From NCBI GenBank assembly GCA_949317995.1, contig OX439041.1, forward strand, positions 13,175,501 to 13,239,500: DNA of 64,000 bases, given 5' to 3'. The translations under genes and the position numbers were made by a program. Source of the stretch: Acholoe squamosa. Its lineage: Eukaryota; Annelida; Polychaeta; Phyllodocida; Polynoidae. Below, in pieces: positions 11,883-44,500 of the stretch; within the stretch, counting starts at the first letter, position 1, and each line of letters starts with the position of its first letter. Below the pieces are notes generated by a model, which saw only the letters and a list, made by a program, of their open reading frames with translations, searched no databases and was not told the origin of the DNA.

Positions 11883-12247
11883 TGTAGGGGCCGGTATCGT
11901 CGTATATATATTAGTGCCGTTCATCCGAGAGACGTGTTCGTGTGGTGCCTGTTCCTTCTATGCCAGCTAGGTGTCGCTTTGTGATACCCCGTTGGTACAA
12001 GAGGGGGCGGCACCATGCCTCGCGTCCAGCTCCTACTAAGGAGCCGGACGAGCGGCAGAAGGTGACTGGATCTAGTCCAGTCCAGACGCGCAGCCTAACC
12101 TGTAGACTAGAGTGGAATAAAGTCCTACCCGAGAGGTAGGGGTTTCTGGGGCTTTGCCCAACCCGAACTACTCGTGTTGTGTTGGTATTTCTAGTGGTAA
12201 GCGAGCCAAAGAGCCACCCAACATATAAGTCAATACGAACCATTACA
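11883..12247 (+). repeat. 5' LTR
   Basis: Begins TGTAGGGGCCGG and ends CATTACA. A TATA-like stretch (TATATATATTA, about 11901-11911) lies near the start and AATAAA at 12116-12121. A very short U3 is implied if that TATA is used. It contains a tRNA-T-arm-like hairpin at 12065-12081. Confidence 0.93.
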
Positions 12248-12248
12248 C

Positions 12249-12266
12249 TGGTGCCATGACCAGTTG
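12249..12266 (+). promoter_or_regulatory. candidate primer binding site of the 8.7-kb element
   Basis: TGGTGCCATGACCAGTTG begins one base after the LTR. TGG pairs with a tRNA CCA end. I cannot assign the tRNA from memory with confidence. Confidence 0.6.
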
Positions 12267-12410
12267 GTTCGGGGGTGGTGCGCGGCCACATTGGCCGAAA
12301 GCCTCGGGAAACCCGAAGCGGATCCCCCCAGCCCTGGGCTAGAGGGATTCGAAGAGGATGACTTTACATCCCAGCATCTGTTGTTAGACTGGAAACCCAG
12401 TCAACAACAA

Positions 12411-14510
12411 ATGTATAATCCGGCGGGTGTCCGAACTGTTTTCTCGACACCTGGTCTGATAGACGGTGCCACGGGTGATGGTATCGTAAACTTGTATCCG
12501 GGTACACCCCAAATGGGAGTACCGGATACGGGATTGTTCAAGGGAATAGTAAAACCCCCAACTTTAGACCTGAGTGATTGGTCCCAAGCTATAACTAGTA
12601 GACGCCAGCTGTGTCCTATTGTACCAGCAGGCTCGGCTAGCAACTTGGGTATGCCAGTGGCACAAAACCCTGGAAAACGTACTGCGACCCCCCCAGTAGC
12701 AGTACCGGATGGTGCAAACGAGGTACCCCCATTAATGACATCGTCGGACCATGACAGCGACGATGGCAAAGCCATAAGGGACGCAATAGTCCCAAGCATG
12801 AATGCGAAGAATAAGCCTAGGGGTGCTGAACCGAAAAGCTCGGAAAGGCATCACTTAGGCCGATCGCTAGACGAAGGCTTGTCTGACTCCATGTTCAATC
12901 CTGGAGGCAGTCGCAGGTCTATATACGGACGTCGGATGGGCCCCGGGTATAAAACTACCCCGGCCTATTTGAAAGCCAAAGAACAGGTAGAGTTACAAGC
13001 TAAGCGGCAACATGAACAATTCATGGCGGCCCAATTAAAAATAGAAGAGGAAACTAAGTCTCGGATCGGAAAATTACGTTCCGAGGAGCAGGAGGCGATT
13101 CTAAAAGAATCTGACCTAAAGTATCGTCTAACTTCGGCAACCCATCGTTTGGAAAGGAAAGAAAGAGACGAACTCGAGAAAGAGAAAAGATTGGCTGAGT
13201 TGGAACTCGAGGAAGCCAATAGACTTAGAGCAATCGAAAAGGCTAGAGCCGAAGAAGTTGCTAAGGCCCGGGATGTAAACAGATTACAATCCGAGTTGCA
13301 TGCCATGGAGGAGAAGCTGAAGAAACTTCAACTCCGAAAGGCGGAGACAGAGGCCAAATTGGTCTCGGAACAAGCCGAGATAAGGAAGGAGACCAACGAG
13401 TATCAAAGGTCTCAGAAAGAAAAAAGTGAAAAGTACCGCTTATTAAAGGATACTTTTAAGCGAGAGGCTTTAGCCGCTCAGGAAGAACGAAACCGAGCTG
13501 TGGCGGAAAATGAAAAGATTCGATCCGAAATCTTAGCAGAAAACGCACAGCTGAGGGAGGAACAGCGAAACCTAACCACAGATCTAGCTACCCTCACAAT
13601 AAATAAGTCTGCCATGGAGAGTTATTTACAGGAGCAGGAGCAAGCGAATGCCCCTCCGGCGAGTAAGGACACAAACCCGAATTCGACTTTCGTTAAACAG
13701 GGCGACCCAGTCTCCTGTTCTACGCCGAAGCATCCGCCGTATAATCCTTTCATTAATGATAATGCGACGCGGAACGTAGATCAAGGGGGAGTTTATATCA
13801 GAACCCAAGATAAACATGGCCGAACTAGTAGAGTCCGGATAAGTGAAGTCCCCATAGTCCACAATTTGGACCCGGATTATATACCACGGGAAGCCTCTGA
13901 CAGTAGTGCAGAGACTAACGGATTCCATATACATGTGGATCCGAGTGACAGCGCGGGGTTGGGAGCTGGTAATGACAGCAACCAACCCAATCCATCAAAC
14001 GATGGCAGTCATCCGACGGGTAACCAGCCTTCAAGCGGCGGTTACCAAAGCGCACAAGGAGGGGGCGGTACCCCGGGTACCACAGGCTACAGTGGTACCT
14101 CGGGTCCCGGCCCTAACCAGGGTGGCGCGGGTTATACGAACCACAGTGTGCCACAGTGGACGTATACGCAGCCACCACCACCACCGCCTCCACCGGGCAA
14201 TACGAGCTTCGGTGGTATAGGGGGCAACCGAACCTTGAATGAAACAAAGGCGGTTGAATGGAGCAAACAGCAATGCACTAGATTGATGTATGCTCATAAT
14301 TCTGCCCGAAGGGTAGCCGTTATTCCAAAAGAATATGACGGTACTCGACCTTGGAAAGAGTGGTTTGAAGACTTCATCGACGTGATGAATTGTAATGGGT
14401 GGACCCCATACGAGGCCAAGCCACATCTGGTAAGATGTTTGAAGGGCGGCCCGGGTCGCATGGCTGTAGAGCAATGGCGAACCTCGTTGGAAGTTTTGAG
14501 CAGTTGGTAG
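12411..14510 (+). CDS. Gag-like protein with long coiled coil, 5' reading frame
   Basis: The open frame runs from about 12264, but its first in-frame ATG is at 12411 (MYNPAGVRTVF), giving 699 codons plus TAG at 14508-14510. A Pro/Gly/Ser-rich N-terminus is followed by about 240 residues of highly charged heptad-like sequence (about 12960-13640), then a Gly/Pro-rich stretch with a PPPPPPPPG run. The C-terminal part reads YDGTRPWKEWFEDFIDVMN and CNGWTPYEAKPHLVRCLKGG, the signature of the Ty3/Gypsy-type retrotransposon Gag domain. The frame breaks inside that domain and the rest continues in another frame up to 15073. No CCHC knuckle is seen. A coiled coil of this length is unusual for Gag. Role: probably particle assembly. 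Confidence 0.75.
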   Translation: MYNPAGVRTVFSTPGLIDGATGDGIVNLYPGTPQMGVPDTGLFKGIVKPPTLDLSDWSQAITSRRQLCPIVPAGSASNLGMPVAQNPGKRTATPPVAVPDGANEVPPLMTSSDHDSDDGKAIRDAIVPSMNAKNKPRGAEPKSSERHHLGRSLDEGLSDSMFNPGGSRRSIYGRRMGPGYKTTPAYLKAKEQVELQAKRQHEQFMAAQLKIEEETKSRIGKLRSEEQEAILKESDLKYRLTSATHRLERKERDELEKEKRLAELELEEANRLRAIEKARAEEVAKARDVNRLQSELHAMEEKLKKLQLRKAETEAKLVSEQAEIRKETNEYQRSQKEKSEKYRLLKDTFKREALAAQEERNRAVAENEKIRSEILAENAQLREEQRNLTTDLATLTINKSAMESYLQEQEQANAPPASKDTNPNSTFVKQGDPVSCSTPKHPPYNPFINDNATRNVDQGGVYIRTQDKHGRTSRVRISEVPIVHNLDPDYIPREASDSSAETNGFHIHVDPSDSAGLGAGNDSNQPNPSNDGSHPTGNQPSSGGYQSAQGGGGTPGTTGYSGTSGPGPNQGGAGYTNHSVPQWTYTQPPPPPPPPGNTSFGGIGGNRTLNETKAVEWSKQQCTRLMYAHNSARRVAVIPKEYDGTRPWKEWFEDFIDVMNCNGWTPYEAKPHLVRCLKGGPGRMAVEQWRTSLEVLSSW

Positions 14511-15073
14511 AATCTGCTAGTGGACTGTTATGCAACATGGTCAAGGAGGACCCGATGGTCCGTTTCAAGAAACGTACGCAGAAGCCTAACGAAGCTTTCC
14601 GAGCATACGGTATGGAGCTCCATGCCCTGCTAAGCAAGGCCAGACCCGGTACTGAAAACCAGGACTGGTATATGGACGATCTGATTACCCAATTCGTCAA
14701 GGGTCTGAGAGACCGAGATGAGCAGGTTGCTGCCAGGGATGCCTGGAAAGAAGGCGTAACACTTCACGACATATTTAATGGTATAGATATGGCCGTGAAG
14801 AAGCAAACAAAGTTAGCAGGAGACATACCGAATGCCAGCTGCTCGGCTCCCCTGGTATCAGTAGTCCAGCAGTCTGAGGTGCAAATCCCCTCAGATGATT
14901 TCGAATTGATTGAAATCGAACAGGAGGACGGAACCTTCTGTTCGGTCCAATTAAGAAAGAATACTACGGGCAGGAAGTATATTCCTAGGAATCGGCGAAA
15001 ACTGTGGAGAAACCCAGTTGGTCCTGACCTGTGTGAGGGGGGACTAGAGAACTCGGTACCTGGACTGGTATGA
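14399..15073 (+). pseudogene. Gag-like C-terminal part in the -1 frame
   Basis: An open frame overlapping the end of the preceding one. Useful similarity starts around 14475 (LVGSFEQLVESASGLL) and continues through FRAYGMELHALLSKARPG and DLITQFVKGLRDRDEQ, typical of the second half of a Gypsy Gag capsid region. The relation to the upstream frame is -1. I see no heptamer slippery site at the overlap, so a single-base indel in this copy is more likely than programmed shifting. The last residues (from about 14990) are read from sequence shared with the miniature LTR element, so Gag was probably truncated when that sequence joined. Confidence 0.65.
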
Positions 15074-15166
15074 CACAGTTAACGCTTCAACCTGCTAGGG
15101 GTAAACTAGTCACCTGCTGGAGGTTGGGTTGGAGGAGAAGGGTTGGCTGAAGCTGGTGGGGAGGAG
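15005..15166 (+). mobile_element. embedded interior segment related to the miniature LTR element
   Basis: Starts with the PBS-like TGGAGAAACC (15005-15014). It then aligns by eye with the miniature element interior: GGTCCTG, GGGGGACTA, ACTCGG, ACCTGG, CTTCAACCTGCTAG. It ends in a purine-rich tract (GGTGGGGAGGAG) directly before the embedded LTR at 15167. Confidence 0.65.
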
Positions 15167-15418
15167 TGTAGGGGCCAGCTCTGGCTGTGAGTCCATGGCG
15201 GTATGCTATCTGTCCCCGTTCCCCAGTTGCACCAGCCCCCAGGGGCTGGTCAGCCAGTGAACACTGCCCCCTTGTGTCATACCGATCCAGATGTAGGTGG
15301 AAGGTAGAGAACGTCAGGTCTGGGGAAGTAGCTCAGAGGAAGAGCTTCCGCTTCGAAGTTGGAGGGTCCCGGGTTCGAGTCCCGGTTTCTCCAAAGACGT
15401 TTTCCGCCGACCTCTACA
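15167..15418 (+). repeat. embedded tRNA-bearing LTR, plus orientation
   Basis: TGTAGGGGCC ... CCTCTACA, 252 bp, the same order of parts as the 243-bp LTRs at 28,438 and 28,924: GT-rich start, CATACC, GTAGGTGGAAGGT, tRNA-like sequence, GACGTTTTC, CCTCTACA. It is preceded by a purine tract and followed at once by an inverted copy. Confidence 0.75.
15322..15393 (+). tRNA. tRNA-like sequence in embedded LTR (plus copy)
   Basis: 72 nt. Acceptor GGGGAAG pairs with TTTCTCC (two G-U), D arm GCTC/GAGC, T arm CCGGG-TTCGAGT-CCCGG perfect, discriminator A, no encoded CCA. A-box TAGCTCAGAGG and B-box GGTTCGAGTCC are present. The anticodon stem has a mismatch and the loop reads TTCGAAG, so it is not a clean decoder. 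Probably a pol III-competent tRNA derivative. Confidence 0.6.
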
Positions 15419-15631
15419 CTCGTAGTCGGCGAAAACGTACTTGGAAACACCGGGTTTCGAACCCGGGACCTCTCAACTTGCAAGCGAGCGCTCTACCACT
15501 GAGCTACATCCCCAGACCTGACGTTCTCTACCTTCCACCTACATCTGGATCGGTATGACACAAGGGGGCAGTGTTCACTGGCTGACCAGCCCCCGGGGGC
15601 TGGTGCAACCGGGGAACGGGGACAGATAGCA
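15419..15631 (-). repeat. embedded tRNA-bearing LTR, inverted copy
   Basis: Reverse complement of most of the preceding LTR (it lacks about the first 37 bp). With it, 15204-15631 forms a near-continuous palindrome of 428 bp whose arms differ at scattered sites, mainly inside the tRNA-like part. DNA this palindromic would extrude or pair as a long hairpin. Confidence 0.8.
15442..15513 (-). tRNA. tRNA-Ala-like sequence in embedded LTR (inverted copy)
   Basis: 72 nt on the minus strand. It begins GGGGATGTAGCTCAGTGG and continues TAGAGCGCTCGC, the 5' half expected of a metazoan tRNA-Ala(UGC). T arm CCGGG-TTCGAAA-CCCGG is perfect and the acceptor end is TGTTTCCA. The anticodon loop (TTGCAAG) is altered against Ala, giving an ambiguous UGC/GCA register. 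Confidence 0.6.
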
Positions 15632-15752
15632 CTCGGGTGGTAGGCCGCGTCCCGCATGTCGAGTCGAATGTTAGTTCGGATCTAGTTCCCTAGGTGGCGC
15701 CGCGGGTGCGGCGGGAAAGGTTGGAACTAGGTCACCGGATAGCCACGGCGGG

Positions 15753-15780
15753 ATCTCGCGAGGCGAGATGCGTGACGTCA
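15753..15780 (+). promoter_or_regulatory. possible internal promoter motifs upstream of the 1,172-codon ORF
   Basis: TCTCGCGAGG followed by a perfect palindromic CRE, TGACGTCA (15773-15780), about 185 bp before the ORF's ATG in GC-rich DNA. Both motifs are common in TATA-less animal promoters. Function here is inference. Confidence 0.35.
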
Positions 15781-15964
15781 TACTGGTCATAACTAGAGCG
15801 GACTCGTGGTGGTTAGACGCCACCCGTTTTTGCTCTAGTTGTTGTTGGCGGTTTACAGGCCCCTAGCTGTCGGTTAGCTTGCCTAACATCACCTTTTGTT
15901 GGACGAATCCTTCGGGAGGAGTCCAACACAGACACCAAACTATTTGGAAGTCGCCCTCAGTGCC

Positions 15965-18900
15965 ATGGCACAGGGGACGATTGACGCCGCGCGTCAGACT
16001 GCCAACGTTCTGTTGGAACTAGGCGAGGACCCGAAGGTCCCGTCTCGGGTCGAGGAATCTATGGATTCTTCGACAGAGGAGGCCGCCCGGACGCTCTCGG
16101 CTATGGCCGAGGCCACCGACCGGGAGAGGATGCCACCTCCACCACCACCACGCCCGGAGCGCTCGTCTGCAGCAGCCGCTTCGGGTAGCAAAGTGGATGT
16201 CCTGGACATTCCTATGTATCCTCCGGGATTCAAGACTCGGATCGAACGTATGGCACACGTCGATCGCGAGGCCGGTGTCGTGTACACCTCCTGGGGGACC
16301 TACATCCCCATGCACGCCTCCATGTTCGGATGTGGACCAATGGCGGTGGAGCAGGGTGTGCCCGAGCCCATACCAGATGATTTCAAGACTCTGGTAATGG
16401 ACTCGTGCAGTGACGAGCTGGCTGACAATATGCCAGTTTCTTGGCTCCGCAACTATCTGAAGTTAGCGGAGAATATGGCGGTCAACGAAAGTCTGGCCCG
16501 AGCCGTCTTGATCTCCGAGGGCATCACCCGAAAGGCCTCAGAGTTAAGGGAGTCCAAATCCGACATGGATACAGACTCCACAGTCACCTTGTCGTCGGTG
16601 GAAACCGACCGGGTCAAGCGATTGACCCGTAAACCTGCGCCTAAGGGTCCTCTCACTGAGAGCGATCTGGAGGCTGAGGATGTCCGCATCGCCGTCGAGA
16701 GGTCCACAACCGAGACCGACCCAGCTGCCGACATCCCGGAGGCACCTGGCGAGATCTCGGAAGAGGACATCTCGCGCCAGCAGGCTGCTGTGGAGGCAAA
16801 GCGAGCCGAGCTTGCCAAGCAGCAGAAGGAGCTCACCGCAGCTCGCCGGGCCCATCGCAAACAGCAGGCCCAACAGAAAACCAAGGTCTCTTCCGACTCT
16901 GACTCCCCGGTCAGCGGAAGGAGGAGCCCTCGTACAGAGGACAGGAATCGACGAGAGTCGGATTCCAGTCCTGAGATGCCGGCGCAGCCCACCAAGGTTC
17001 AGCGCCGGAAGAAAAAGAACGGAGCGAAAGCGTCTCCCGCAGAACCCACACCCCCCACCAAGCCGAGGGGTAAGGGTCAGCCGAAGACGCCCGCCTCCAC
17101 CACCACAACCTCAACCACCACAGTAGCCACCTCGGCTGCAGCTTCCACTGCCAGCACCAGCGGAAAAGGCGCCAAATCCTCTGCCAAGGCTTCGGCTGGT
17201 ACCACCACCACCAGCCGAGCGAGCCGTAGAGGAGCTGGTATCTACACGGACAGTGAGGATAGCGACAGCGATCCAGAACTGCCCGAGTCGGCCAAATCTG
17301 ATTTGGAGTCCGTGACAACGTGGGAAGAGATGACCACGGATGTCCCGAAAGACGACAATCAGAAATGGATGTGGAAGAATGCAGCCGAAGGGTTCAAAGA
17401 ACGGACTCCTCGCTGCTTCGCGGACTGTGCCTACGACACGGTCCATTACATGTGTCCCGGCGCCGTCAATAAGGACGGTGACAGCGACGACGAGGAGTGG
17501 ATGAAATCCGGCCCCTCGGATACGCCTGTAGGTAAATTCTACCTCATTTGGATTGACCAGCTGAAATCCAAATTGGGGTCGATTTACAGCTACGAGGCCC
17601 GGACGAAAGTTCAGTGGGCAATGACCCAATGGGGACCAACCGGCAGCCGCCGACGGTGCCCATTCGAGTCATGCCAGCTGGCTCTCACGGGTGAGGAGAT
17701 GTTCGAGACGAAGCCTCGCTTCGCTCGCCACATTGTTGAACATCACATGCACCACAAGCCTGTGATGATGTGTGTGCTTGGGGACCGCCCGAGCAAACAT
17801 TGTGATGGCTCGTTCAGCACTCACCGGCGCCGAGACATGGCTCTGCACTTGCAGAAGGCCCATGGCATCGGCCTGGAGAAAACCAGGAAACGAGCCATCA
17901 AGTGCTTCAACGAGCTCCTAGCTAACTGGGCCTCGTTGAGCATTAAAGACGTTAAGGAGCAGGCATTCGAGACCGGATTCTGCTCATGGAAGAGCGGCAA
18001 CTTGTTGACCTTCTTCCAAATCAACTTCTCGTCCACGAAATTCGGGATGCCCAGTGAGGTGCACCTGAAGGTAAAAAAGTGGCGAGGAGATGATAAGCGA
18101 GAGAAGGCCAAAGCCCGCTCTAAGGGTCCTAGCAGAGGCACAGCCACGGCTACTGTTGCTTCCAAGAGGACCCGAGCAGACCGGTCCGTGAGCCCTTCGG
18201 GTGGCAAGGACCAGCCAAGACCAGCTAACCCAGCTGATCGTCGCGAGTCGGGACAACAAGTCTCGGCTCTGGATATGCCCAGCAACCAGGCCCGTAGGTC
18301 TGGTAGCCAGGCAGCCACACCGGCGACTCCAGCCACCACCACCTCTACACCTGCACCCGCGGAACAACGCCCGGGCGAAGCCACTGGCAGCCAGGATGGT
18401 GGGGGCGAACTCTTCGCTCCCCCATCCGGGTATTCTTCTTGGTGGGCCGGAGAGGGATCTTCCGGCAAGCGCCCCACGTATAGTGAGTACGCGGCGAAGT
18501 TCCCCGCTATGGGACCAGCTGGACCCGAGTCGCAGGTCCTTACCTCCCTGGGCCGGACCAAACCCCGTGGTAGAGGCCGTGGTGGGCTGGAGTCCACCCG
18601 AGCTCCCCCGGGCGGTGGCCGAGGCCGGGGCGGTCTAACGGTTGAGGGCCCGTCTGCTCCTCCAGCAGGTACTCCGCCTGCCCCAGTGGAAGCCACCGCG
18701 CCTCCACCAGTCATTGCTCCACCAACGGGCCCTCGGGTACCCCTGATGGAGCTAATTTCGGATACGCTGTCAGGTCTTCAGGATCCGAACACGTTTGTTG
18801 ACCACCGAGATGTCCAAACGGTTCACATCCAGAATGAGCTGATGGTGGAGTGGCAGGCATTGCACCGCCAGAAGTCAGTCGACTACTGGCGGGCGATGAC

Positions 18901-19483
18901 TGAAGCCACCCTCAATCTGGTATACGAAATCCAGAAGAGGGAGGAAGACAAGATCAGGCAGCTGGAGAAGGACAGAGTCCAAGAGGCTCTCGAATCCTGC
19001 CGGCGTCAGCAGAAGGAAGCCGAAAAGCTTAAGGAGTTTCACCAAGCTGAAAACGCCAGATACATCCATAGGTTTAAGGAGGCTGACCTCAAGTTTTTCC
19101 TGGCATTCGGGAAACATCTGGAGGAGTGGGACGGCTTACCGTCGTCCCTTATCTTCATACCAGATGTACCCCCGGATGCCCCACCGGTCCCGGCTACTCC
19201 ACCGGTTCCGGCCACTCCACCGGTCCCGGCTGCTCCGCCAGTTCCGGCAGCTCTCCTGCTCCCGCCCCCTACTGTCACCCGGACTGTTACAACTGCCACG
19301 GTCGCTCCACCAGCATCCGAGGCAATGGACAGTCCATCCGCGGTGATGAGGGCCTTGAGCTTGGAGAGCGATACGCCCAGCGAGGCTTCCGCGGCGCTCT
19401 CTACGAGCAGCTGTAGCAGCTCGGCTCCATCTGCCTCAGTGGAGTCGGCTGAGAAGATGGACACGGATCCGGAAGATCTTTAA
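15965..19483 (+). CDS. novel retrotransposon-borne ORF, 1,172 aa, two zinc-finger-like motifs
   Basis: I do not recognise this protein. The start chosen is the first in-frame ATG, GTGCCATGGCA at 15965, a good Kozak context; the frame is open from about 15896. Visible parts in order: a short N-terminal helix, a conserved-looking block (YPPGFKTRIERMAHVDREAG, SWGTYIPMHASMF), a long acidic/basic low-complexity region rich in Ser, Thr, Pro and Lys (about 200-450), a second globular block (WEEMTTDVPKDDNQKWMWKN onward), then two C2H2-like fingers from Cys565 (CPFESC...HIVEHH; then a Cys pair...HLQKAHG). A third globular block follows, then Pro/Gly/Arg-rich sequence, a coiled coil (EEDKIRQLEKDRVQEALESC) and PVPATPP repeats. 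Stop TAA. It occupies the place of pol but has no pol motif. It could be a nucleic-acid-binding accessory protein or a captured host gene. Confidence 0.7.
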   Translation: MAQGTIDAARQTANVLLELGEDPKVPSRVEESMDSSTEEAARTLSAMAEATDRERMPPPPPPRPERSSAAAASGSKVDVLDIPMYPPGFKTRIERMAHVDREAGVVYTSWGTYIPMHASMFGCGPMAVEQGVPEPIPDDFKTLVMDSCSDELADNMPVSWLRNYLKLAENMAVNESLARAVLISEGITRKASELRESKSDMDTDSTVTLSSVETDRVKRLTRKPAPKGPLTESDLEAEDVRIAVERSTTETDPAADIPEAPGEISEEDISRQQAAVEAKRAELAKQQKELTAARRAHRKQQAQQKTKVSSDSDSPVSGRRSPRTEDRNRRESDSSPEMPAQPTKVQRRKKKNGAKASPAEPTPPTKPRGKGQPKTPASTTTTSTTTVATSAAASTASTSGKGAKSSAKASAGTTTTSRASRRGAGIYTDSEDSDSDPELPESAKSDLESVTTWEEMTTDVPKDDNQKWMWKNAAEGFKERTPRCFADCAYDTVHYMCPGAVNKDGDSDDEEWMKSGPSDTPVGKFYLIWIDQLKSKLGSIYSYEARTKVQWAMTQWGPTGSRRRCPFESCQLALTGEEMFETKPRFARHIVEHHMHHKPVMMCVLGDRPSKHCDGSFSTHRRRDMALHLQKAHGIGLEKTRKRAIKCFNELLANWASLSIKDVKEQAFETGFCSWKSGNLLTFFQINFSSTKFGMPSEVHLKVKKWRGDDKREKAKARSKGPSRGTATATVASKRTRADRSVSPSGGKDQPRPANPADRRESGQQVSALDMPSNQARRSGSQAATPATPATTTSTPAPAEQRPGEATGSQDGGGELFAPPSGYSSWWAGEGSSGKRPTYSEYAAKFPAMGPAGPESQVLTSLGRTKPRGRGRGGLESTRAPPGGGRGRGGLTVEGPSAPPAGTPPAPVEATAPPPVIAPPTGPRVPLMELISDTLSGLQDPNTFVDHRDVQTVHIQNELMVEWQALHRQKSVDYWRAMTEATLNLVYEIQKREEDKIRQLEKDRVQEALESCRRQQKEAEKLKEFHQAENARYIHRFKEADLKFFLAFGKHLEEWDGLPSSLIFIPDVPPDAPPVPATPPVPATPPVPAAPPVPAALLLPPPTVTRTVTTATVAPPASEAMDSPSAVMRALSLESDTPSEASAALSTSSCSSSAPSASVESAEKMDTDPEDL

Positions 19484-20251
19484 GTGTCCATCTGACGGTG
19501 TCTCCTTTGTACCCGAGGGTAAAAGCATTTAATATGCCAGAGGCACTGTTCCTTACGCTGGACTCCTGATATCTGGAACGTAACCTGCAGCGAAGATGGA
19601 CGCTAAACCCGACACACCAAAAAGGATTACCACACCTACCCGGGGCTCCATCTTCCCATCTTCATCAGGGCACATCACAACAGCAACGTGGCTTGCCACC
19701 ACACATATGTCGCCGGATGGAGCTGCAGAAACCAGTCGTTCCAGATTCGCCGGAAGTCCGGTATATTGTAAGGGTGATCCTGCTACCCTGGTAGGACACC
19801 TATATTTGTTAGTATTATTATTTTTTTGTATAAATATATTTTTATACCAAATATATATTCTTGTAATTAAAACAAACAAAATTTTTCTCTCGGGTTATCT
19901 ACCCCACCTCGGGTCGGTTAGTTAATACTGTAAAATTTTATTCATATCACCTGATTACTCGTCTACCACTTTTTAATGCGTCTTGTTTATAATAATAACA
20001 CTATTGTAACACTGTTACTACATATCACCATAGGTCGATGGTGCATAAGGCGCCACCTCCTATTCGTTATTATTAATTATCATTACTTCGGGTTATATGC
20101 GACGATGCCTCATTATGTACATATTATTTATAATGCCCCTAGATGTTCTATATCCTATACGAACTGTATATATAGACTTACCTATTTGTATATGATATTA
20201 CTGTATAAAGTTAAAACAATAGGTTAATTACACCCAACCCTAGGTATAGTC
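19484..20251 (+). other. retrotransposon 3' non-coding region
   Basis: From the ORF stop to the purine tract. AT-rich in its second half, with no convincing ORF. It contains a repeated A/T-rich stretch and no recognisable pol remnant. Confidence 0.6.
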
Positions 20252-20263
20252 TAGTGGGGGTGG
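20252..20263 (+). promoter_or_regulatory. candidate polypurine tract
   Basis: TAGTGGGGGTGG directly abuts the right LTR, the place where plus-strand priming needs a purine-rich tract. It is short and not perfectly purine. Confidence 0.5.
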
Positions 20264-20628
20264 TGTAGGGGCCGGTATCGTCGTATATATATTAGTGCCG
20301 TTCATCCGAGAGACGTGTTCGTGTGGTGCCTGTTCCTTCTATGCCAGCTAGGTGTCGCTTTGTGATACCCCGTTGGTACAAGAGGGGGCGGCACCATGCC
20401 TCGCGTCCAGCTCCTACTAAGGAGCCGGACGAGCGGCAGAAGGTGACTGGATCTAGTCCAGTCCAGACGCGCAGCCTAACCTGTAGACTAGAGTGGAATA
20501 AAGTCCTACCCGAGAGGTAGGGGTTTCTGGGGCTTTGCCCAACCCGAACTACTCGTGTTGTGTTGGTATTTCTAGTGGTAAGCGAGCCAAAGAGCCACCC
20601 AACATATAAGTCAATACGAACCATTACA
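20264..20628 (+). repeat. 3' LTR
   Basis: Same length and, by eye, same sequence as the 5' LTR, displaced by exactly 8,381 bp. AATAAA lies at 20497-20502. Flanked downstream by the target duplication CGAG. Confidence 0.93.
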
Positions 20629-26500: not shown

Positions 26501-29500
26501 TCAGAGAAAGCGGGTGATGTTGGGAGCAGCTTTTCATCTCTCAGATCTGTCCAGAATGCATTCTCTCTGTCACCCAGGCAACTGGTCTCCAGCCGCTCCA
26601 GTTCGACCTTCGCTCGACCTTGGAGTATCTCAGCTGTCATAAAAAGTAGGAAAATTATAGGATATTTTGGCAATTCAATATTTCGAAAATGGTGTTTGGA
26701 CTTTCTGGGATTCGAACCTGGGACTGCCAGGCCTCTAGGATCATTGAGCTACAAGCCCTCATCTGCCATCTTCAACCTACTGACCACACCTGCTAGCCAT
26801 TTCTCAAACACTACGATCCTACCCCTGTCCCTCCGATTCCAACCACCCCTACGATCCAGTCCAATCATAGTGATTGACCCTTGGTGATTATGTATTACCT
26901 ACGATTGCCTATACAGGTGCATGTCTTTTTCCTCTGTATCTGCTCTAATCGTAGTGATTGACCCTTCCAATGAAGAATTCATGGAATACCTATATAAGGT
27001 GCATTAGGAGCTTAGCAGTTGAAATTGCGTTCAACAAATATCACTATTTCACAGAAGCAGTGGCTTACATCCATATTATTACAGTTTGTCAATTGCATTT
27101 ATATATTCATTGAATTCTTGTGGAAATTATTTTCTTATTTCAAATGTGTGTCTTGATTAATACACAAGTATACATGTCTATACATTAGAGTTATCTCTAC
27201 TCTTATTAACCCACCTTCTGTGGGATATTTCAGTTTCTTCATTGCCAGCAAGAGCCGCTTCAGATGACCTGAAAAAAAAACAGCGGTTGAATTAACAAAA
27301 TGAAAATTTATACATATAATGTTTGCAAAAAGATGAAGACAATCTACACTTAATCAGCAACTTTTTTTGTAAAAGGACTGGGGGTGAACATACCTCCAAA
27401 TCCATTAGCCCTGGGGCAGTTACAAGTACCGTAATCTCCCGCATATAAGGCGCGTCTCATACACGAATCAGAACATGGATGTGTCTTATACGCGGGAGGC
27501 AGGCTGCCTTGAGTTGGGGGTGCACCTTATATGCAGGGTACCCTCAATTACCAATTCAGACCAGGTCGGTCGAATTTTATCTCACCTCGTGCCTTCCTTA
27601 AGGACATCACTCAAGGGTGAGAGGTCCCGTGGGTTGTATCTACACCGAAGTCAGATTACCCTTGTGGTGTTGTGCCCGGACCATAGTCTAATGGGGAGGG
27701 GGGATGATGGTAACCGAATCTATGGGAAGGTAGAAAGCACGCCCCTACACATTTACCGAGCCAATGGTTAACATCTGTCACTACATAGGCATAGTGACAG
27801 ATGGACAGGTCTGTCTTAAGTCATTTGTCTGCCATGACCGATGTGAGACTTTCCAGCACAGCCTAGCCTGGGCAGGGAGGAACTCAAATGACACCTTACG
27901 GCGACATTTGGGGCCACCACTGTGCCTGGAAAGGGGCGGGAACCAAACTCGCAAGCTTACCGCCCCTGAGCGGACGCAATGCCAACTGCGCCATGCCTCC
28001 CAGCCCAGACCAGCTTGTGATGCTGAGAATATAATTTTTTTGAATGCCACAAATGAGGTGTGAACAAAAGTAGAACTCTATTCTAACACTGTATCATCAA
28101 TTTCTTTATTTGTGCATTCTATAAATGTGGTGTCATGTTAGGGAAAGAACATAAATCATCACATTATCTAAATATCTTAATTCATCCGTGCATCCAATCA
28201 TATAGAAATGGTATTGTGGCTCCATCTAGCGTCAAATCATAAACATCTAGATGAATCTAAAGTCATCTGTCCACCCAATCTGATGATTATAAACAATTCT
28301 TATCTAAATGATTCATATGATGTGAAGTCATGCATGTCCTGTGTTTGCTATAATAACACCAGATTTCAGCACACCACAATATGGCAGGAGTATTGATTAT
28401 GATGCTGCATGGATTCACTTGATTAAAAGGTCAATAGTGTAAGGGTTCGTTCCCCGGGTACGTTGAGCCTCCAGAGGCCAGCTCACTTGGTGGTCACTCA
28501 CCCTATGTATACCATACCATTCCAGAGGTAGTTGGAAGGTGGAAATGTCAGTGGGGCCATGTTGGTGATAGGGTATGTCATGCCAGGGGATGTAGCTCAC
28601 CGGTAGAGTGCACGACTTGCAAGCGAGAGATGTGGGTTCAAATCCCCGTGTCTCCAGAGACGTTTTCACCAACCTCTACACTGGTGGAGACACCGAGTGG
28701 TCCTGCCCTGCAAGGGGGACTAAGATACTCGGGACCTGGGCCAGTATGGTATAGACAAGCACTTCAACTTGCTAGTGGTGAGGGACTTGGTAACAGGTGG
28801 CACCCACAGAATGTCCTTGGAACAGGAGATTGTAGTGATGTGTTTGACCCAGTACTGGTACCGTTCGGACCGGAACTGGAGGATCGGGTCTGGCGGGATA
28901 CGATTGAAGCTGGTTGGGAGAGGTGTAAGGGCTCGTTCCCCAGGTGTGTTGAGCCTCCAGATGCCAGCTCACTTGGTGGTCACTCACCCTATGTATATCA
29001 TACCGTTCCAGAGGTAGTTGGAAGGTGGAAATGTCAGTGGGGCGATGTTGGTGACAGGGTATGTTAGGCCAGGGGATGTAGCTCAGCAGTAGAGCGCTCG
29101 ACTTGCAAGTGAGAGACGCAGGTTCGAATCCCGGTGTCTCCGGAGACGTTTTTGCAGACCTCTACAATAGTATACTTGATAAAGATCTCAGTAAGTGGGG
29201 TATACATATATTTCCCAACACTTTTCTGATGAGCAGAATGGTGTGCTTCATTCAGTAGTTTATGGGTATATAAAGCACCATAGTATCAACTACACCTTTT
29301 CTTTGGTTAAATAAAATACATGACCAGTTGTGGTATTGATATCTGTAGACAATATTTGAAATCCCCCTTTGGGTTGGGTCCCTTGTGTGGACAATGCTTC
29401 TTGAGTTAGGGGTGCGCCTTATACGCGGGTTTTTCAAATATTAAACTCAGGAGCAGCAGATGCACCTTGTACGCGGTTCTGCCATCCCTGAGTTGGGGGT

Positions 29501-32500
29501 GTGCCTTGTACGTGGGCTGCGCCTTCTACGCGAGAGCTTATGGTAGTTATAAAAATAGACAAAGGTGCACGAGAACTGGTCAGCACTGAGGGTTATCACA
29601 CAAGTCGAAACCAGGTGTGATAATCCTCAGTGCTGACCAATGAGTGCTCCTTTGCATTTATCTAAGGTAAAGGGGTCGTAAGGGGGAGATTCCACAAAAA
29701 AACAATTTTTCATGTAAAATCAGTGTAAGACACATCAAACCTGTAAATATTATACATGCTTGGAAATGTAATCAATGCCTTTATCATTATCCTTCAATAA
29801 TATAACATTTTCTTATTCATGGAATGTATATGGAACAAAAAACGCTCCGTTTTTGTTCTTTTTGCTGTGAACAGAATTGGGGGATAGAAGATTGTCATAA
29901 TTCTCAGTTTTGATGAATAGAGAACAATTTTGGAAGGATTTCCGAGGGCACGTTTTTTTCTTTTGCTGATACTCCAATTATTAAGGTCTACAGAGCTGTT
30001 CAAAGTTGGGTTGTCATTCTAAAAGTGTAATATTCAAGGAAAAATGGGCGAAAACAGGTGAAAATTAAATTTTTTGGATGACAACCCAACTTTGAACAGC
30101 TCCGTAGACTTTAATAATTGGGGTATCAACAAAAGAAAAAAAGTGCCCTCAAAAATCCATCTGAAATCATTAGAAGTAACATATGACAAATTTCTATCCT
30201 ATAATGATGTTCAAAGCAAAAGAAGCTAAAAAAAAGGATGTTTTTGTTCCATTCACATTCCATAGACACCACAATTGCGCAGGATGGAAGGAAATTGATA
30301 AAGGCATTGATAATGCTTCCAACCATGTATAATAGGTCCAGATTTTTACTTATTCTACATGTCAGAATGTTTTTGTGGAAGCTGCCCCTTACGACCCCTT
30401 AATTTAGTCAGATATGTTTTCCCTGGCAGTGTGATATGGGGCAGTGTTATCACATTGGGGAATGATATGGAGGTCCTTGGTTAAACCTATGGGGCTGTTG
30501 TATTCAACTTGAGATAATGCATAATCCTGTAAATATCAACGTTCAATAATTTACCTGGTTTAATAATGCCGATCTCTTTCTTGATTTCATCTTTTGACAT
30601 GTTCTTCAGGATCTCGAGTTGTCGGCTGCTGACAATCTGCATCTTCTTGAAGTTACTCTCGTACTGTTGGAGGCCGATCAATTTCAGCCAATCCTCTACA
30701 GTTTCCTGAAAGAGTTGCACTTTGGTAATTTTAGTACTGTTCCATAGTAGAAGATCCTTGTATAAGGTGCACCCATCGCGGTGCACAGAAAATGTGACGC
30801 TGCCTGCAAGTCAAACGTCGTCAATGCAGACTACTTTAGCATGGTTCATATCCCATGATGACCTAAACTCGCCATGCTGACAATACCAAGTATACATTTT
30901 GATGGCTCATATGGTTAGGATGACGACCGAAAGTCGTCATTTTGACGAGCTGTAGATTTAGGTATTGCCAAGCTGAGGAACTTAAGTCATTTGCACTGTT
31001 TCGGACTTCTCAGGTTTTCAGTGTGGCTGATTCATCCACCCCCTATGATATACTAGATATGATGTTTTTTTACAATTTTGTTGCATTTAACTGGATAAAA
31101 AAAGGGAAATGAATAATATCAGACAAAATATCATTTTCAAGAATATGGATTTTTTCTTACCGACAAAACAGGCTCTATATTGGGTTCCCCCAGTGCACTT
31201 ATCTCAGCCAGCAGAGCTTCGCGATGAGCCTTGACCTTGACTCCCAAGGTCATGAGTTCAGCATCTGTCATACCGACCAGGAAGGACGTGTCGTCATATC
31301 CTGCATCCTCCAACATGCCTGCGTACTGATTCTGTAAGGAAAGGTGGAAAAATATTGATGTAGTATACAGGCTGGAGTCAGTAATGGAGACCTTTGTGGA
31401 GGGAGGGGCCCAGGTAACAAAATGATGTAATTTTAACGTTAAATTAACGTCATTTCCAAGTAGAAAAAACGTTCAAAGGTGGTTCAGCTTAACCTCATTT
31501 CATGGACTCAAAACAACATTGAATAAATGTTGAAAAAATGCTGATTTAACACCAGAATTCTCATGAAAATAGGCATTAAAATGACTTGACATTAACCTTG
31601 AACCAACCTCATCTTGCTCCCTATGATGCCTGCATATTAGAATAGGATATTTATTTTCTCTTTACTTTTCTTATATATTTTATAGAATAGGAAACATTTC
31701 CTCTCATCTCTTGATGCTCCAATGGTACACCAATCCTCTTTTGTAAAAGGATGATGTGTCCCATGTGTGAGAGGAGCAGCATATTGATTCATAAGGGAAG
31801 ACAGAACGGGAACAGGTTATAGAAATTCTAAATGTTTCAATAAGGGTGTCTACCACACCATGGACCATTATGCAGGGACAATTTTCATTTATTCATGGAT
31901 ATTTTTCCACCAAGATATATCTGGACATGGGATCTTGATGATAAGGTTGATACAACTAGCATATTATCATCACTCTGCTACATATCAGACAGATACCTGT
32001 GTGCAGCATCCAACCCAGTCTTACCATAACATTTCCTGCCACCTAGTGAGTCATTTGGGAACCATCAATCAACGTTTTTTAAACCAGTTAAATCAACGTT
32101 GTTTTGAGTCCACATTCTGAATGTTGATCAATGTTATTCAAGGGTTATCTGGAAAAACGTTGGCTGCTGAACCTTCTTTAAATGTTAAACCAACATTTAT
32201 GAAAAAAACGTTTTCTTAAAAACCGAAAACAACGTTTTTTAACAAATGTTAGTCCAACTAACCATCAGTGAACGTTGATTAACGTTCACCTAACGTTTCT
32301 TGTTACCTTGGGGGCTGCTTCCCGATTCCCAGTTTTAACCTCATATCACTCTGATATCAAGATTCCTAGCTGTGATATCCGAGCTATATACTTTGATATC
32401 AGAGTTATCAAACGTTAAAGTCTATGATATCAAAGTTTCCAATAAACTTGCCCAGATACTAAAAAAGGCGGGGAAATGAATGCATCATAATATCAGTCTG

Positions 32501-35500
32501 CTATGGCAATATTTCAGAAAACCCCTGGGATTGCACAAGGAAACTGTGATATAAAAGTTAGAAACCCTGTAATCAAATTCTAAAACTCTGATATCAACAA
32601 AAGAAACTCTGATATCAGGGGGTGGGGGTGAAACATTGGGCTTACCACAGCAATGTGTAGCTGGGGGCAGAGGAAGAGGTGGGGGGAGGGTGTGTGTCTT
32701 TGGATCAACCCCCAAAAAGGTAAAACCCTACACTGCAAAAATGGTGTTTCGGTTTTAAACATGCTTAGGTCTAAACACGTTTAAAATCTAAACATGTTGG
32801 TTCATCAGGCATTTAGTTCACCATGTGTTTAGGATTTAAACATTAAAATTCTGAACACCTAAACAGTTGCGCTAAACATGTCTCTATGTTTAGACTTTAA
32901 ATGGACAGAAAAGTAGGTGTTTAGCTTTTAAACGTTTACATTTCTAGGTGTTTAGACATAAAATATCCACCAGATGACAGCTGTATGCTATAATGGACTT
33001 CCTACATGCAGCCATCTGCTATTGTTAGGTCATAATAGATTGTGCTATTCTCCTAAATTGCAGTTTCACACAATTTAATATTTACACAATTTTAACAATA
33101 GAGGATTATGCAATTAAGCCCTATCCCAGTAAGCATGTGTTCTCCTTGCATTCACTTGTTTCCTTGAGCGCAATGCATTCAAAATGTCTAGATTGCGTAT
33201 GGATTGCTTCCAACACAATACAAATGCAAATGGATGCCAGCAGATGCAGCATGTGTTGGACCTCAAGCTATGACCCCACACTCAAAGTGAAGTATAAATC
33301 ATGAGTCAGCATTCTCCCACAGCCAGCGTGGCACAGTGGTAGTGCATTGGATTTGTTATCCTAAGGTCGCAGGTTCAAGTCCCAACCATGCCTGCTGTGT
33401 TGGAGTCTATGCTTTGAGTTTGCTATTGGTTTCTATGTGTAATTTTATCTTGTTTTAAAAAAGTCCTTGAAAGACACACTTTTGGTTGCATGATGTTATT
33501 TTAACATTGGATAATATTTGTATAGTATCTGACACAGTCTATCATAGTGTCCACTAGGGTTTAACATTCACATCACAATGGGTTAAATAGAAACTTGTGA
33601 TGACATACCATTAGGTCGTCTGGCAACCAGTCTGACACCTTGGTCGGTTTATTTTCCTTGTAGTGGAACTGGAATCTCCCATAACCAGAATCTGCAGTGT
33701 CTGCCCCTTGATTCGCTGCATTAGTACCCATGGCATCATTACCTGCAGCATCATCACCTGCGGCATCATCACCCGCGGCATCATCAGTAGTGTCGTTGAT
33801 GTCTTCACTGTCGATGTCAATGCTAAGGGTCTGTGTGCTGATCTCATCACGAACCAAACAGCTTCTGTAGCGAAGGCAAGAGAAGGTACTGTGGAGGTCA
33901 TTACTTAACACACTACGACTGCTGTCCGTTAGATCCCCGGCGTTAGATCACAGTCCTTTGCAATATTACAGCATTATTAGTTACTAATGCCTGCACCAGT
34001 ACGACTGCTCTGCCAAACCCTAATTACTACGTAGGTGCTCAACAAATAGAGCAGTTATAGGGGAGTATGTACCTACAATCCCCCTGTACTATTCTTGACA
34101 GGTCTGTGAGGGTCAGAAGAACTAATTAGTATGGAACTTTATGACCGGTCTACATACACCTCAAGCTCCCCTATCATTTTCACACTGGGAATATTGGGCT
34201 ATTCATGACTAGTCCAGTCATTTAAGCCAAATAAGGGGGGGGGGCTTGACAAATTACAACAGAAACACAAACATTCCTCAAGGCACGGGTTTAATCTATC
34301 CTATATACCCCCTTAAATCTGAGCCACAGAATCTGTTGAAATGCTTGGTTTTTTCATTGGTAAAATGGTTGCTTAGCAATGGTATAACCTAAATGTCCAT
34401 TCCCTTAGCACCATAGGTTTATTTCATTCACTGCTCATTTCCTGCAATACCTAACTGCAGGTTTTATGTCTTCCCCCTGGAGGAAGGTAATGTCTGTTCA
34501 ATAGCTCCTTAAGGGTCACTAATGAAGCCAATACCAGCACTACATTGGAATCATATTGCCCATGATAGTGACGACCATTGCCAACGATGGCCCACCATCT
34601 CCTTGCTAGTCTGACTACCAAGCAATCCTATCCTAAACCTCTACTTACTTGAACATTTTTCTGAAGATTTGTATCATGACTCTACTCGCATCTGACTTTC
34701 CTGTGGAGCGTGTGGTCTTCTCCTCACGAGTGCCCCATGAGCAGTCATCGAGGTTCACAATGCTGTAGATGAGGAGGACAATGAAACCCGCAGGCAAACA
34801 GCAGAGGTACCACATGCCGTGTAACAGACAGTAGGCTTCTGGTGGATGCAGGAGGGCAGCAACGACAAACACCATCACAACAAAGCTTACAAAGAGCGTT
34901 ATCACGGAGATGGGCATGGGGAACTTTGCCTCTCCAGCTGGGAATGAATGTGAGAGAAAAGAACAATTATGTTAGAATGAATAAGGGGAAAACCCAATAT
35001 GGATAGATTTTGTTTATTACAATAAAATATAGTTCAAACGTTAATTTCAAATCAGAAGAAGTAGATATTAGTTGATCTTGTGTTAGTTTTTCTCAAATGC
35101 CTTTTAGTTAGTAGAAATAATGAGCCGGCCAACCTTTACCATAAAGGCAAATAAAAAAAGGTGCGTCTCCAATAACCCGACCGACCCTAGCAAAACTGTG
35201 ATTTTGAAGAATTTTGTCTCATTTTTTTTCGTATTTTAAAGAAATTTTCATTACTTTTTGAGATTATTTCCTGTATCCTTTTCATGTTCTTCCCCTCTCT
35301 CATAGTTGCCATTTTCTCATCATTATTTTAAAATGAAATCAAAGAATTTGATACATCCATTGATATGTGCCCTAACATTTCCTATAAATGTAAAAAAAAT
35401 AAAAAAATAAAAAAAAATAACTGACCTATCGACCCTAGCACTTTGATCTATGTTACTCTTTTTTTTTTTTTGCCTAAACCAAATAAGTTATTTTTGTATT

Positions 35501-41500: not shown

Positions 41501-44500
41501 GCTATTCAAAGACCATTATCAATCTTGTCAGAGGAAAATGACATTTAATGGCACCTTTTCTTTGGTAATAACTCTTATTTGCAACAATGGAATAATGTTT
41601 AAATCTGTGTAAACCATTCAGTCCAAACTCAAATACTGATTAAATGAGGAAACAATTTTTTGGCTTTGAAATGAAATAGATTAATTGTGTATAACACATT
41701 TCAAGTAAAGAAGGACAACCAAAATATATATACAATCTATGCATAGGGGTCTAAGGACGAATTGATTGATTGGCTCAAACCATCTAAGCAATTGTCAAAT
41801 GTTGTAAATCAATCTTAACTGCTGTAGGAATCAGCATGATGCACCATTTAAGTGCTGGCAGGTCTGCTTGCCTGCACTTCATTTGGGCCACCTTAACTTG
41901 ATCTGGTGACAAATCCGATACAGTCCTACATCATCAGATCATCAATATTTAGTACAAGAATTGTACACCAGAGGACCCACCTGTGACTCTTTCAGCAGGA
42001 TGAGAGCATTACTCTTGAACACATAGTACCCGATGGACAGTAGCTGTGCTAGGTACAGACAAAATGCTGCAGGCACCACAAAAGGTAGGTTGTATAACCT
42101 AGGGCTACAGTTTGAAGTATAAGTGCTAAATTTAAAGATGTCCACTTTGCATGACTCAATGTAAAGGGTCAGGAAGAAGGCGATTGGGGTTGTGAGTATA
42201 AGGGGTAGGAAGAAGGCCGGACGCATGGACATGCTACAGGCCATCCAACCAAACAGGTAACCAGCACAACTACACACCAGTGTAGTCATCAGGTAGGGGA
42301 AGAACGGGTCATCTGAAAAAGTGCAGACAGAAAGAAATAATGTAGATCATGTGTATAAGCCATGGCTTATAGAACATTTCAGGCTCTTAGTCCGGCTTAT
42401 AGGATTCCCTTGAACTCAGCATGTGGCTTAATATATATGAGGGGTTTAATTATATAGACTATAGGAAGGAATGACAACCATTTCAGACCTCTGGGGTGGC
42501 TTATATCAATCTCCAAAAGTCAGAGTGCAGTTTATACACAGGAGTGGCTTATACACAGGGTTTTATGGTATTATTATCTAAGGAAGTGTTAATTATAAAT
42601 ATGGATGTTGAGACGCCATTGACAATGCACTAGTCCATTGCATTACACCCCAGTGTTGAATAACTCATTGCTAATTCTGCACAATGATATAATCCCCTAG
42701 GGCCACTTGACCATGGCAGAAAGTAAACATCCATGATAATGTACCACCTGGCAATTTTGGGTTGTCCCAAGTAAAAGTGAAAGCATTTTGAATAAAAGAA
42801 CATGAATTTGTCTCTTAAACACCTTGACATAAATGTTAAGGTGAATCTGATCAGTTTGCAACTCATGTTTCTTTGCATGCAGGTCGGGGCTGTTCTGCAC
42901 ATGGCCTAACAGCCTAGACCCGCACGTGAAGAAACTTTCATGAAACACTGATCATTCTATATATTCACATATGCTATGGAAGGCTATTGGCCTGTGCCAT
43001 AAGCTACAGAGGAGAGACTTTTATTTTACACAGAGGTCTTTCTTATTGATATCAAAATATAATCAGCCATTATTATAGGAGTTAAAAATAACTGATTGTT
43101 CCTACCTGGAGTTATATAAGTAAAGCCCACTGACAACTTGGTCAGATTGATATCTGGATGGAATCCCCAGGTTAAAAGCAGCAGAAAGCTAGGCACCATC
43201 ACCATCCTCAGGATGCTGGTAATGATCGTTATCTTCCAGCGAGCTGTCACCATCATCTCCGAGTCACCATGTGGATCTTGCAACTGCATGACATCAAGAT
43301 GAAGCTGTTTATTTAAGTTGATAGATTACCTTTACCTATTAAGATATGGCTGAACCATAAAAATCTCTTTTTATGACCAACATTATTTTATACATTTTTG
43401 GCATAAACTGAAGGATTTATGTCCACACATGTCAAAAGGCCTAGACTCACCCAACTTAATTATTCCAGAGAAGAAGGCAGACACTTTTTCCTTTTTTTTT
43501 GTACCATCTATACTGAAGTATTTTATCCATTGCAACTTAGTGCTGATTTTTGGTGCCTATTATATAGTGGAGCACCGATTTCTTATTGATTATTTTAGAA
43601 CTAAATCAACTTACCTCTGACAACTGGAGGTGGAGCCTTGGGATGCGTCCGGACGTCCTGGGCATTAGCTGTAAATGTTGAATGGGACTACACCAGGCAA
43701 TGCTGAGGCACACCAACGACACAGGTATGGCCCACACTGCAGTTCCTGTCCTTAACCCACCACAGTTATAGCAGAACAGAGCCAGGAGGATACCAGCAAT
43801 TGTAAGCACTACTGATAATGCTAAGGTTAGGGTGAGGCAATAACGCTGCCTGCCCTGAACTTCTGCCTGGTCTGCCCGGCAGAGGGTCTGGAAGAGCATG
43901 TAGGCAGCATGTGCAAGGAAGACGCCATTCATGAGGGAGACTGAAACTGAGGGTTGTATGTTGGGTAGTACCTCCAAGACAAACAGTGCCAAACCAAATG
44001 ACTCAAACAAACTGGCGAGTACACCCTGGAATACAAACCAAACTATTAGTAGTTTAGGGGCACCTGTTGAGAGAATACACATCAATTATTGTAGAAGTAG
44101 ACCTTGTGTTTAGTATGGTAATCATCATGTAGAACAAAGCATTCATTTCCATCTATGACCTCTATCTTATAAAACTGTCTGACCCCAGGCTAAAGTCACA
44201 ACATAGATAAGGAAGTATTTCTTTTTCAATGTGTTTCAAATATGTTTACCAGTGATAGAAACATTCCTTGCTATAATCTGATAAAGTATTTCTCTGTTTA
44301 CAAAGTCTTTCAGGTACGAATAGTTCATTATTGTAATACCCTATGTATAAGCCACATACATGTCAGCTACTTGTTGAGTTCATGAGAAAGCTACTTTTTC
44401 TCCTAAAAGTATCTATTTGCGGCTTGTACACAGGGTCATATAATATGTGAAAATAATGTTAAAGATTGGGAAAAACCTGACTCACTGCAATTATTGCCTT

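Follow-up and report, generated by a model that had tools for sequence, protein, structure and literature searches.

Reverse transcription in LTR retrotransposons and retroviruses is primed, as a rule, by a tRNA borrowed from the host. A short element within the 64,000-nucleotide stretch of Acholoe squamosa DNA that was analysed here (contig OX439041.1; hereafter the window) carries a tRNA-like gene in each of its LTRs and, next to the left LTR, a primer-binding site (PBS) complementary to the end of that tRNA, which raises the question of whether the element encodes its own primer. Confidence is evenly balanced that this element, designated A, is a TRIM of the Helenus type and that its LTR tRNA acts as its own minus-strand primer, or did so recently, in the active period of the family. 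The assignment to the Helenus type was made by described features.

Element A is a TRIM of 729 bp (positions 28438-29166 of the window) with 243-bp LTRs that are 89.3% identical, start with TGTA and end with TACA (Table 1). Stop-to-stop frames of 209 and 129 amino acids run across it. The tRNA-Ala-like sequences that the initial annotation had placed in both LTRs, ending 24 bp before the LTR border, were confirmed as matches to Rfam RF00005, each above the gathering score of that family (29); ARAGORN called the tRNA of the 3' LTR only and not that of the 5' LTR. Minimum-energy folding of four tRNAs gave no cloverleaf, with z values against shuffled sequences (0.10, -0.73, -1.07, and -0.57) not clearly better than for the shuffles, so that the identification as tRNA rests on the covariance model. 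The element contains just two plus-strand runs of four or more T residues, each beginning six bases after an LTR tRNA. The two LTRs of A diverge more from each other in the tRNA and the 3' portion than elsewhere; this was weighed as a sign of exchange and set aside (p 0.054; 0.30 when CpG sites are excluded).

Table 1. Features of element A and of its relative B in the window.
Feature	Position	Strand	Basis
Target site duplication ATAG, left	28434..28437		Same letters at 29167-29170
5' LTR of element A (TGTA...TACA)	28438..28680	+	89.3% identity with 3' LTR
tRNA-Ala(UGC)-like gene in 5' LTR, A and B boxes	28586..28656	+	Rfam RF00005, 38.5 bits; box motifs
TTTT, candidate pol III terminator, 5' LTR	28663..28666	+	6 bases past tRNA
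Internal region of A; purine-rich 3' end GGTTGGGAGAGG, candidate PPT (by inspection)	28681..28923	+	LTR limits
PBS TGGTGGAGACACCGAG	28682..28697	+	14/16 to either own LTR tRNA plus CCA
3' LTR of element A	28924..29166	+	89.3% identity with 5' LTR
tRNA-Ala(UGC)-like gene in 3' LTR	29072..29142	+	ARAGORN; Rfam RF00005, 46.7 bits
TTTTT, candidate pol III terminator, 3' LTR	29149..29153	+	T run
Target site duplication ATAG, right	29167..29170		Equals left copy
B: PBS-like TG-TGGAGAAACC and internal region	15003..15166	+	Aligns with internal region of A; PBS body 10/11 to own LTR tRNA end; left junction rearranged-looking
LTR B1, tRNA-like gene 15322-15393	15167..15417	+	LTR profile and tRNA match
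LTR B2, in inverted orientation and tail to tail with B1; minus-strand tRNA-like gene at 15442-15513	15420..15629	-	LTR profile and tRNA match

The PBS of A was compared with the reverse complement of its own tRNA end plus CCA. It lies one base past the left LTR and is complementary to that end, as had been annotated, at 14 of 16 bases for either LTR; against the majority of both LTR tRNAs, where the PBS itself decided any tie, the count is 15 of 16. Among the approximately 128,000 16-mers on both strands of the window, the score of 14 was reached by the PBS alone and that of 13 by two 16-mers per LTR, and chance was rejected as the origin of the match. Directly after the tRNA, the LTRs of A continue with AGAGACG and hold no CCA, and the TGG of the PBS was therefore not copied from LTR DNA; judged by its letters, this TGG points to a CCA-tailed RNA.

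Such an RNA could also come from the host. The main rival explanation is that a cellular tRNA-Ala (the canonical one, or an unusual host isodecoder such as one ending GGTGTCTCCA) primes the element, the LTR tRNA being only a pol III promoter derived from tRNA-Ala and the two ends being alike by ancestry; this is a serious possibility, judged somewhat doubtful. The end of human tRNA-Ala, TCCCCGGCATCTCCACCA (PMC12301416), fits the PBS of A at 13 of 16 bases, and tRNA-Ala was the best fit among the 23 cellular ends compared. The margin of the own LTR over canonical tRNA-Ala is thus one or two bases in the window copy alone. This PBS is also fitted at 14 of 16 bases by each of the LTR tRNAs of relatives B1 and B2, no worse than by its own. 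A cellular primer is further favoured by the fit of the canonical end in the 20 elements described below, where it already agrees with the PBS at 9 to 11 of its initial 13 bases, and by the cellular tRNA primers that have been assigned to Helenus families (Kojima 2024, PMC10886601).

Collection of the genomic copies with the LTR as query had been proposed in the initial annotation. The search of the Acholoe squamosa genome (1.48 Gb, 63 contigs) listed at least 43 matches, and 40 of 1578 first-look candidates were scored; from the 38 loci that were read (30 + 8), 58 distinct LTR copies and 20 PBSs were obtained. The loci were picked by their likeness to the window LTR and belong almost all to one subfamily, and for this reason the 20 PBSs cannot be counted as independent of one another and test covariation hardly at all. 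Equal 4-bp flanks were present in 7 of the 12 distinct two-LTR elements (window copy included) and in 10 of 18 single-LTR rows. Two loci, L021 and L023 (C18, ~19 kb apart), hold near-identical LTR copies with the same flanks and represent a local duplication.

The tRNA is absent from two of the 58 LTR copies. It ends with TGTCTCCA in 51 of the 56 readable ones, and the two bases by which it is told apart from canonical tRNA-Ala are TG in 54 of these, the exceptions being one TT (a B-type copy, at locus L024) and one GG. At these two diagnostic positions, 19 of the 20 PBSs are complementary to the LTR, and so follow it where LTR and canonical tRNA-Ala differ, which speaks against a cellular tRNA-Ala as primer; the earlier observation that the PBS matches the LTR copy at its diagnostic bases, for which the window copy offered a small margin, was borne out. 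Bases 1-13 of the PBS read exactly TGGTGGAGACACC in 12 of 20 cases. Over these 13 bases the own 5' LTR matched at 241 of 260 positions in the 20 elements, as against 211 and 191 for two human tRNA-Ala ends; the own LTR was better than both in 17 elements, equal in three, and worse in none, the ends being human and possibly not those of the host. The match to the own 5' LTR was perfect over 13 bases in seven of the 20 elements. The most frequent PBS and the most frequent LTR tRNA disagree at base 15 (A for G). The own match thus holds in the copies read.

The two strands of the acceptor stem bear on the form that a cellular primer would take. The 5' strand of the LTR tRNA is GGGGATG, as in tRNA-Ala, in 51 of the 56 readable copies, and it pairs with TGTCTCC by means of three G-U pairs. 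One of them is G3-U70, the alanine identity pair. An isodecoder ending TGTCTCC and carrying the canonical tRNA-Ala 5' strand of the LTR would have to contain all three; going by this pairing, a cellular tRNA of such build is improbable, and the unusual 3' end therefore has the look of one that belongs to the LTR lineage itself.

The acceptor 3' strand with the discriminator was also the least variable among the segments compared, with changes in 4 of 446 cells. Non-CpG columns varied at 237 of 7410 cells in U3 (Fisher p 0.003 against the acceptor end) and at 68 of 2791 cells in the rest of the tRNA (p 0.04), in segments that were defined post hoc, after the data had been seen, and with one column falling in both the T-stem 3' and the acceptor 3' segment. 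Box B was nearly as conserved (8 of 504 cells in non-CpG columns, 1.6%). Were the tRNA a promoter only, the A and B boxes would be expected to be conserved and the acceptor end would not.

Other elements of the window were also inspected. The LTR element at 11883-20628 has identical 365-bp LTRs and a CGAG duplication, of the same 4-bp length as that of A, and has the LTR start TGTAGGGGCC in common with B. Its PBS fits best to the end of tRNA-His (12 of 16), followed by Phe (11) and Ala (8), three ends having been compared, and this neighbour likewise favours a cellular primer. It contains a split gag-like ORF, with Retrotrans_gag at E 0.069 only and below the Pfam cut-off, and a 1195-aa ORF that has no family match. 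No pol domain was found with Pfam in three of its ORFs, all matches being below the cut-off, and searches of NCBIfam with two ORFs and of the PDB with one gave nothing. Elsewhere in the window, a SAM domain above the Pfam cut-off and a chitin synthase N-terminal match below it were recorded (31140-31472 and 43609-44085, minus strand), a combination that would be in keeping with an invertebrate animal; the similar stretches repeated through the window suggest a tandem gene array. Weak, decayed tRNA-bearing stretches that match the LTR profile are found at 59644-59789 (minus, E 1.4e-6), 26687-26770 (minus, E 1.2e-4), and 33328-33383 (plus, E 0.004) and are perhaps older relatives or SINEs. Pattern scans of viral contigs gave no match for four of five patterns and 17 contigs for the remaining one, and one pattern scanned against genome contigs gave a single contig; when these 18 contigs were compared with the profiles of the LTR and of the internal region, none gave a match at E<=1e-3, and they were taken as chance hits.

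Relative B, a complex of an internal region, LTR B1, and inverted LTR B2 at 15003-15629, lies within the LTR element at 11883-20628. The tRNA of B1 ends with GGTTTCTCCA, and its acceptor pair 6-67 is A-U, as against U-G in A. The adjoining PBS, TGGAGAAACC, has the base that matches this changed pair: it fits B1 at 10 of 11 positions, the A LTR majority and tRNA-Phe at 9, and both LTRs of A, B2, and canonical tRNA-Ala at 8. As far as these letters go, the fit to B1 is what self-priming would predict; it is weakened by the seemingly rearranged junction, and this one second relative is all that the case for covariation has to stand on. One G is missing from this PBS, and the flank to its left resembles an inverted LTR end, a likeness that 78 of about 5000 random stretches of the window equal in score (flank alone); because of this resemblance, part of the PBS of B may come from rearrangement.

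The two LTRs of B differ at 2 of 116 positions upstream of the tRNA and at 15 of 72 inside it (p 1.3e-5), a concentration that looks as if the U3/R border, and hence the start of transcription, lay at the 5' end of the tRNA. Three stem pairs are changed on both sides between B1 and B2, all in B1; the control for pair covariation is weak (four sequences), and three pairs were changed on both sides in 66 of 500 shuffles. A second B-type LTR was found at locus L024, where it stands tail to tail with an A-type LTR and has the same tRNA end as B1; no B-type PBS is readable next to it. Inverted tail-to-tail pairs of tRNA-bearing LTRs thus occur at two places (15167-15629 and L024:2007-2490). On the minus strand of L024 (~2470-2400), an A-type PBS with an internal fragment lies within the U3 of the B-type LTR.

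The joined PBS-like and LTR-like pieces at B and in L024 would fit a second explanation, which concerns origin only: aberrant reverse transcription at one time placed a copy of a primer tRNA in the LTR, and this copy is now only a promoter or inert. A single step would account for the common end. What the LTR contains is an entire tRNA gene lacking the CCA that a reverse-transcribed primer should bring, and the acceptor end shows little variation across the 58 copies; on both counts this origin is judged improbable. That template switching or recombination keeps the PBS and the LTR tRNA end alike as DNA, with the LTR tRNA not acting as primer, is very improbable, given that the TGG of the PBS is absent from the LTR past the tRNA and that the LTR-PBS junction of A is regular, and despite the left junction of B, where the apparent inverted LTR end runs into the PBS.

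Priming by the LTR tRNA itself can be put in a fuller form, which is offered tentatively: the family would encode, in its LTR, a pol III-made and CCA-tailed tRNA primer, and the PBS would be rewritten in each cycle, so that primer and site would evolve linked and freed from the host tRNA pool. Pol III would initiate near the 5' end of the LTR tRNA. Most transcripts would end at the T run just past the tRNA and, once trimmed and CCA-tailed, would pair with the PBS; those that read through, from the tRNA of the 5' LTR to the T run of the 3' LTR, would serve as genomic RNA. Plus-strand strong-stop synthesis would then copy the 3' end of the primer into each new PBS, by which the PBS would be locked to the LTR tRNA. 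Element A would be mobilised in trans, with proteins presumably supplied by a Gypsy-like partner; the neighbour at 11883-20628 would be a candidate, given its LTR start in common with B and its duplication length in common with A. It also counts against self-priming that few pol III transcripts should get past the T run of the 5' LTR to reach full length. The proposal is partly supported: the structure and the match to the own PBS are real across the copies read, and use of the LTR tRNA as primer is what we infer.

If true, the presence of a primer gene of tRNA type in the element would account for the upkeep of a tRNA-like acceptor end in an LTR, and the identity of the PBS could be inherited together with the element. 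A few LTR retrotransposons prime with part of their own mRNA (PMC6934838). Among TRIMs of animals, A can be set beside biv-TRIM of bivalves, from which it differs by having a PBS, a canonical one being described as not identifiable in biv-TRIM (PMC6934838). Cassandra TRIMs, as described in PMC10886601, likewise bear in their LTRs a gene for a small RNA that is equipped with a pol III promoter; they are elements of plants and carry a 5S rRNA gene, as opposed to the tRNA-like gene of A. No 5S family was among the Rfam matches of the window at the gathering threshold or at E<=1.

In elements of the Tf1/Tf2 type, the primer is the 5' part of the element's own mRNA, whereas for A it would be a separately processed tRNA. 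The likeness lies in a primer derived from the element itself, as is proposed for A, Tf1/Tf2-type elements being self-priming LTR retrotransposons (PMC6934838).

The closest likeness in described features is to Helenus (TRIMp3; Kojima 2024, PMC10886601), TRIMs with a tRNA in the LTR that occur in fungi, animals, and one plant. In the LTR of element A lies a tRNA-derived sequence that includes the A and B boxes (Rfam, box motifs); the element also has two LTRs, a short length without evident mobilisation genes (729 bp, compared with 311-1263 bp in PMC10886601), an internal region bounded by a PBS and a candidate PPT (by inspection), and, in ATAG, the 4-bp duplication of animal Helenus. It differs in that its PBS complements the LTR tRNA. 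Such complementarity, the absence of which is a reported and not a defining trait of Helenus, was not found there according to Kojima 2024, where the tRNAs are concluded not to contribute to priming (PMC10886601), and no other report of an LTR tRNA matching its own PBS was met in the literature searched, mostly at less than full text. The initial annotation had held that a tRNA-bearing LTR matched to its own PBS was not known: the tRNA-bearing TRIMs had already been published as Helenus, and what is new is the self-match of LTR tRNA and PBS. If the LTR tRNA does act as primer, A would be an exception to the published view that Helenus tRNAs play no part in priming (PMC10886601).
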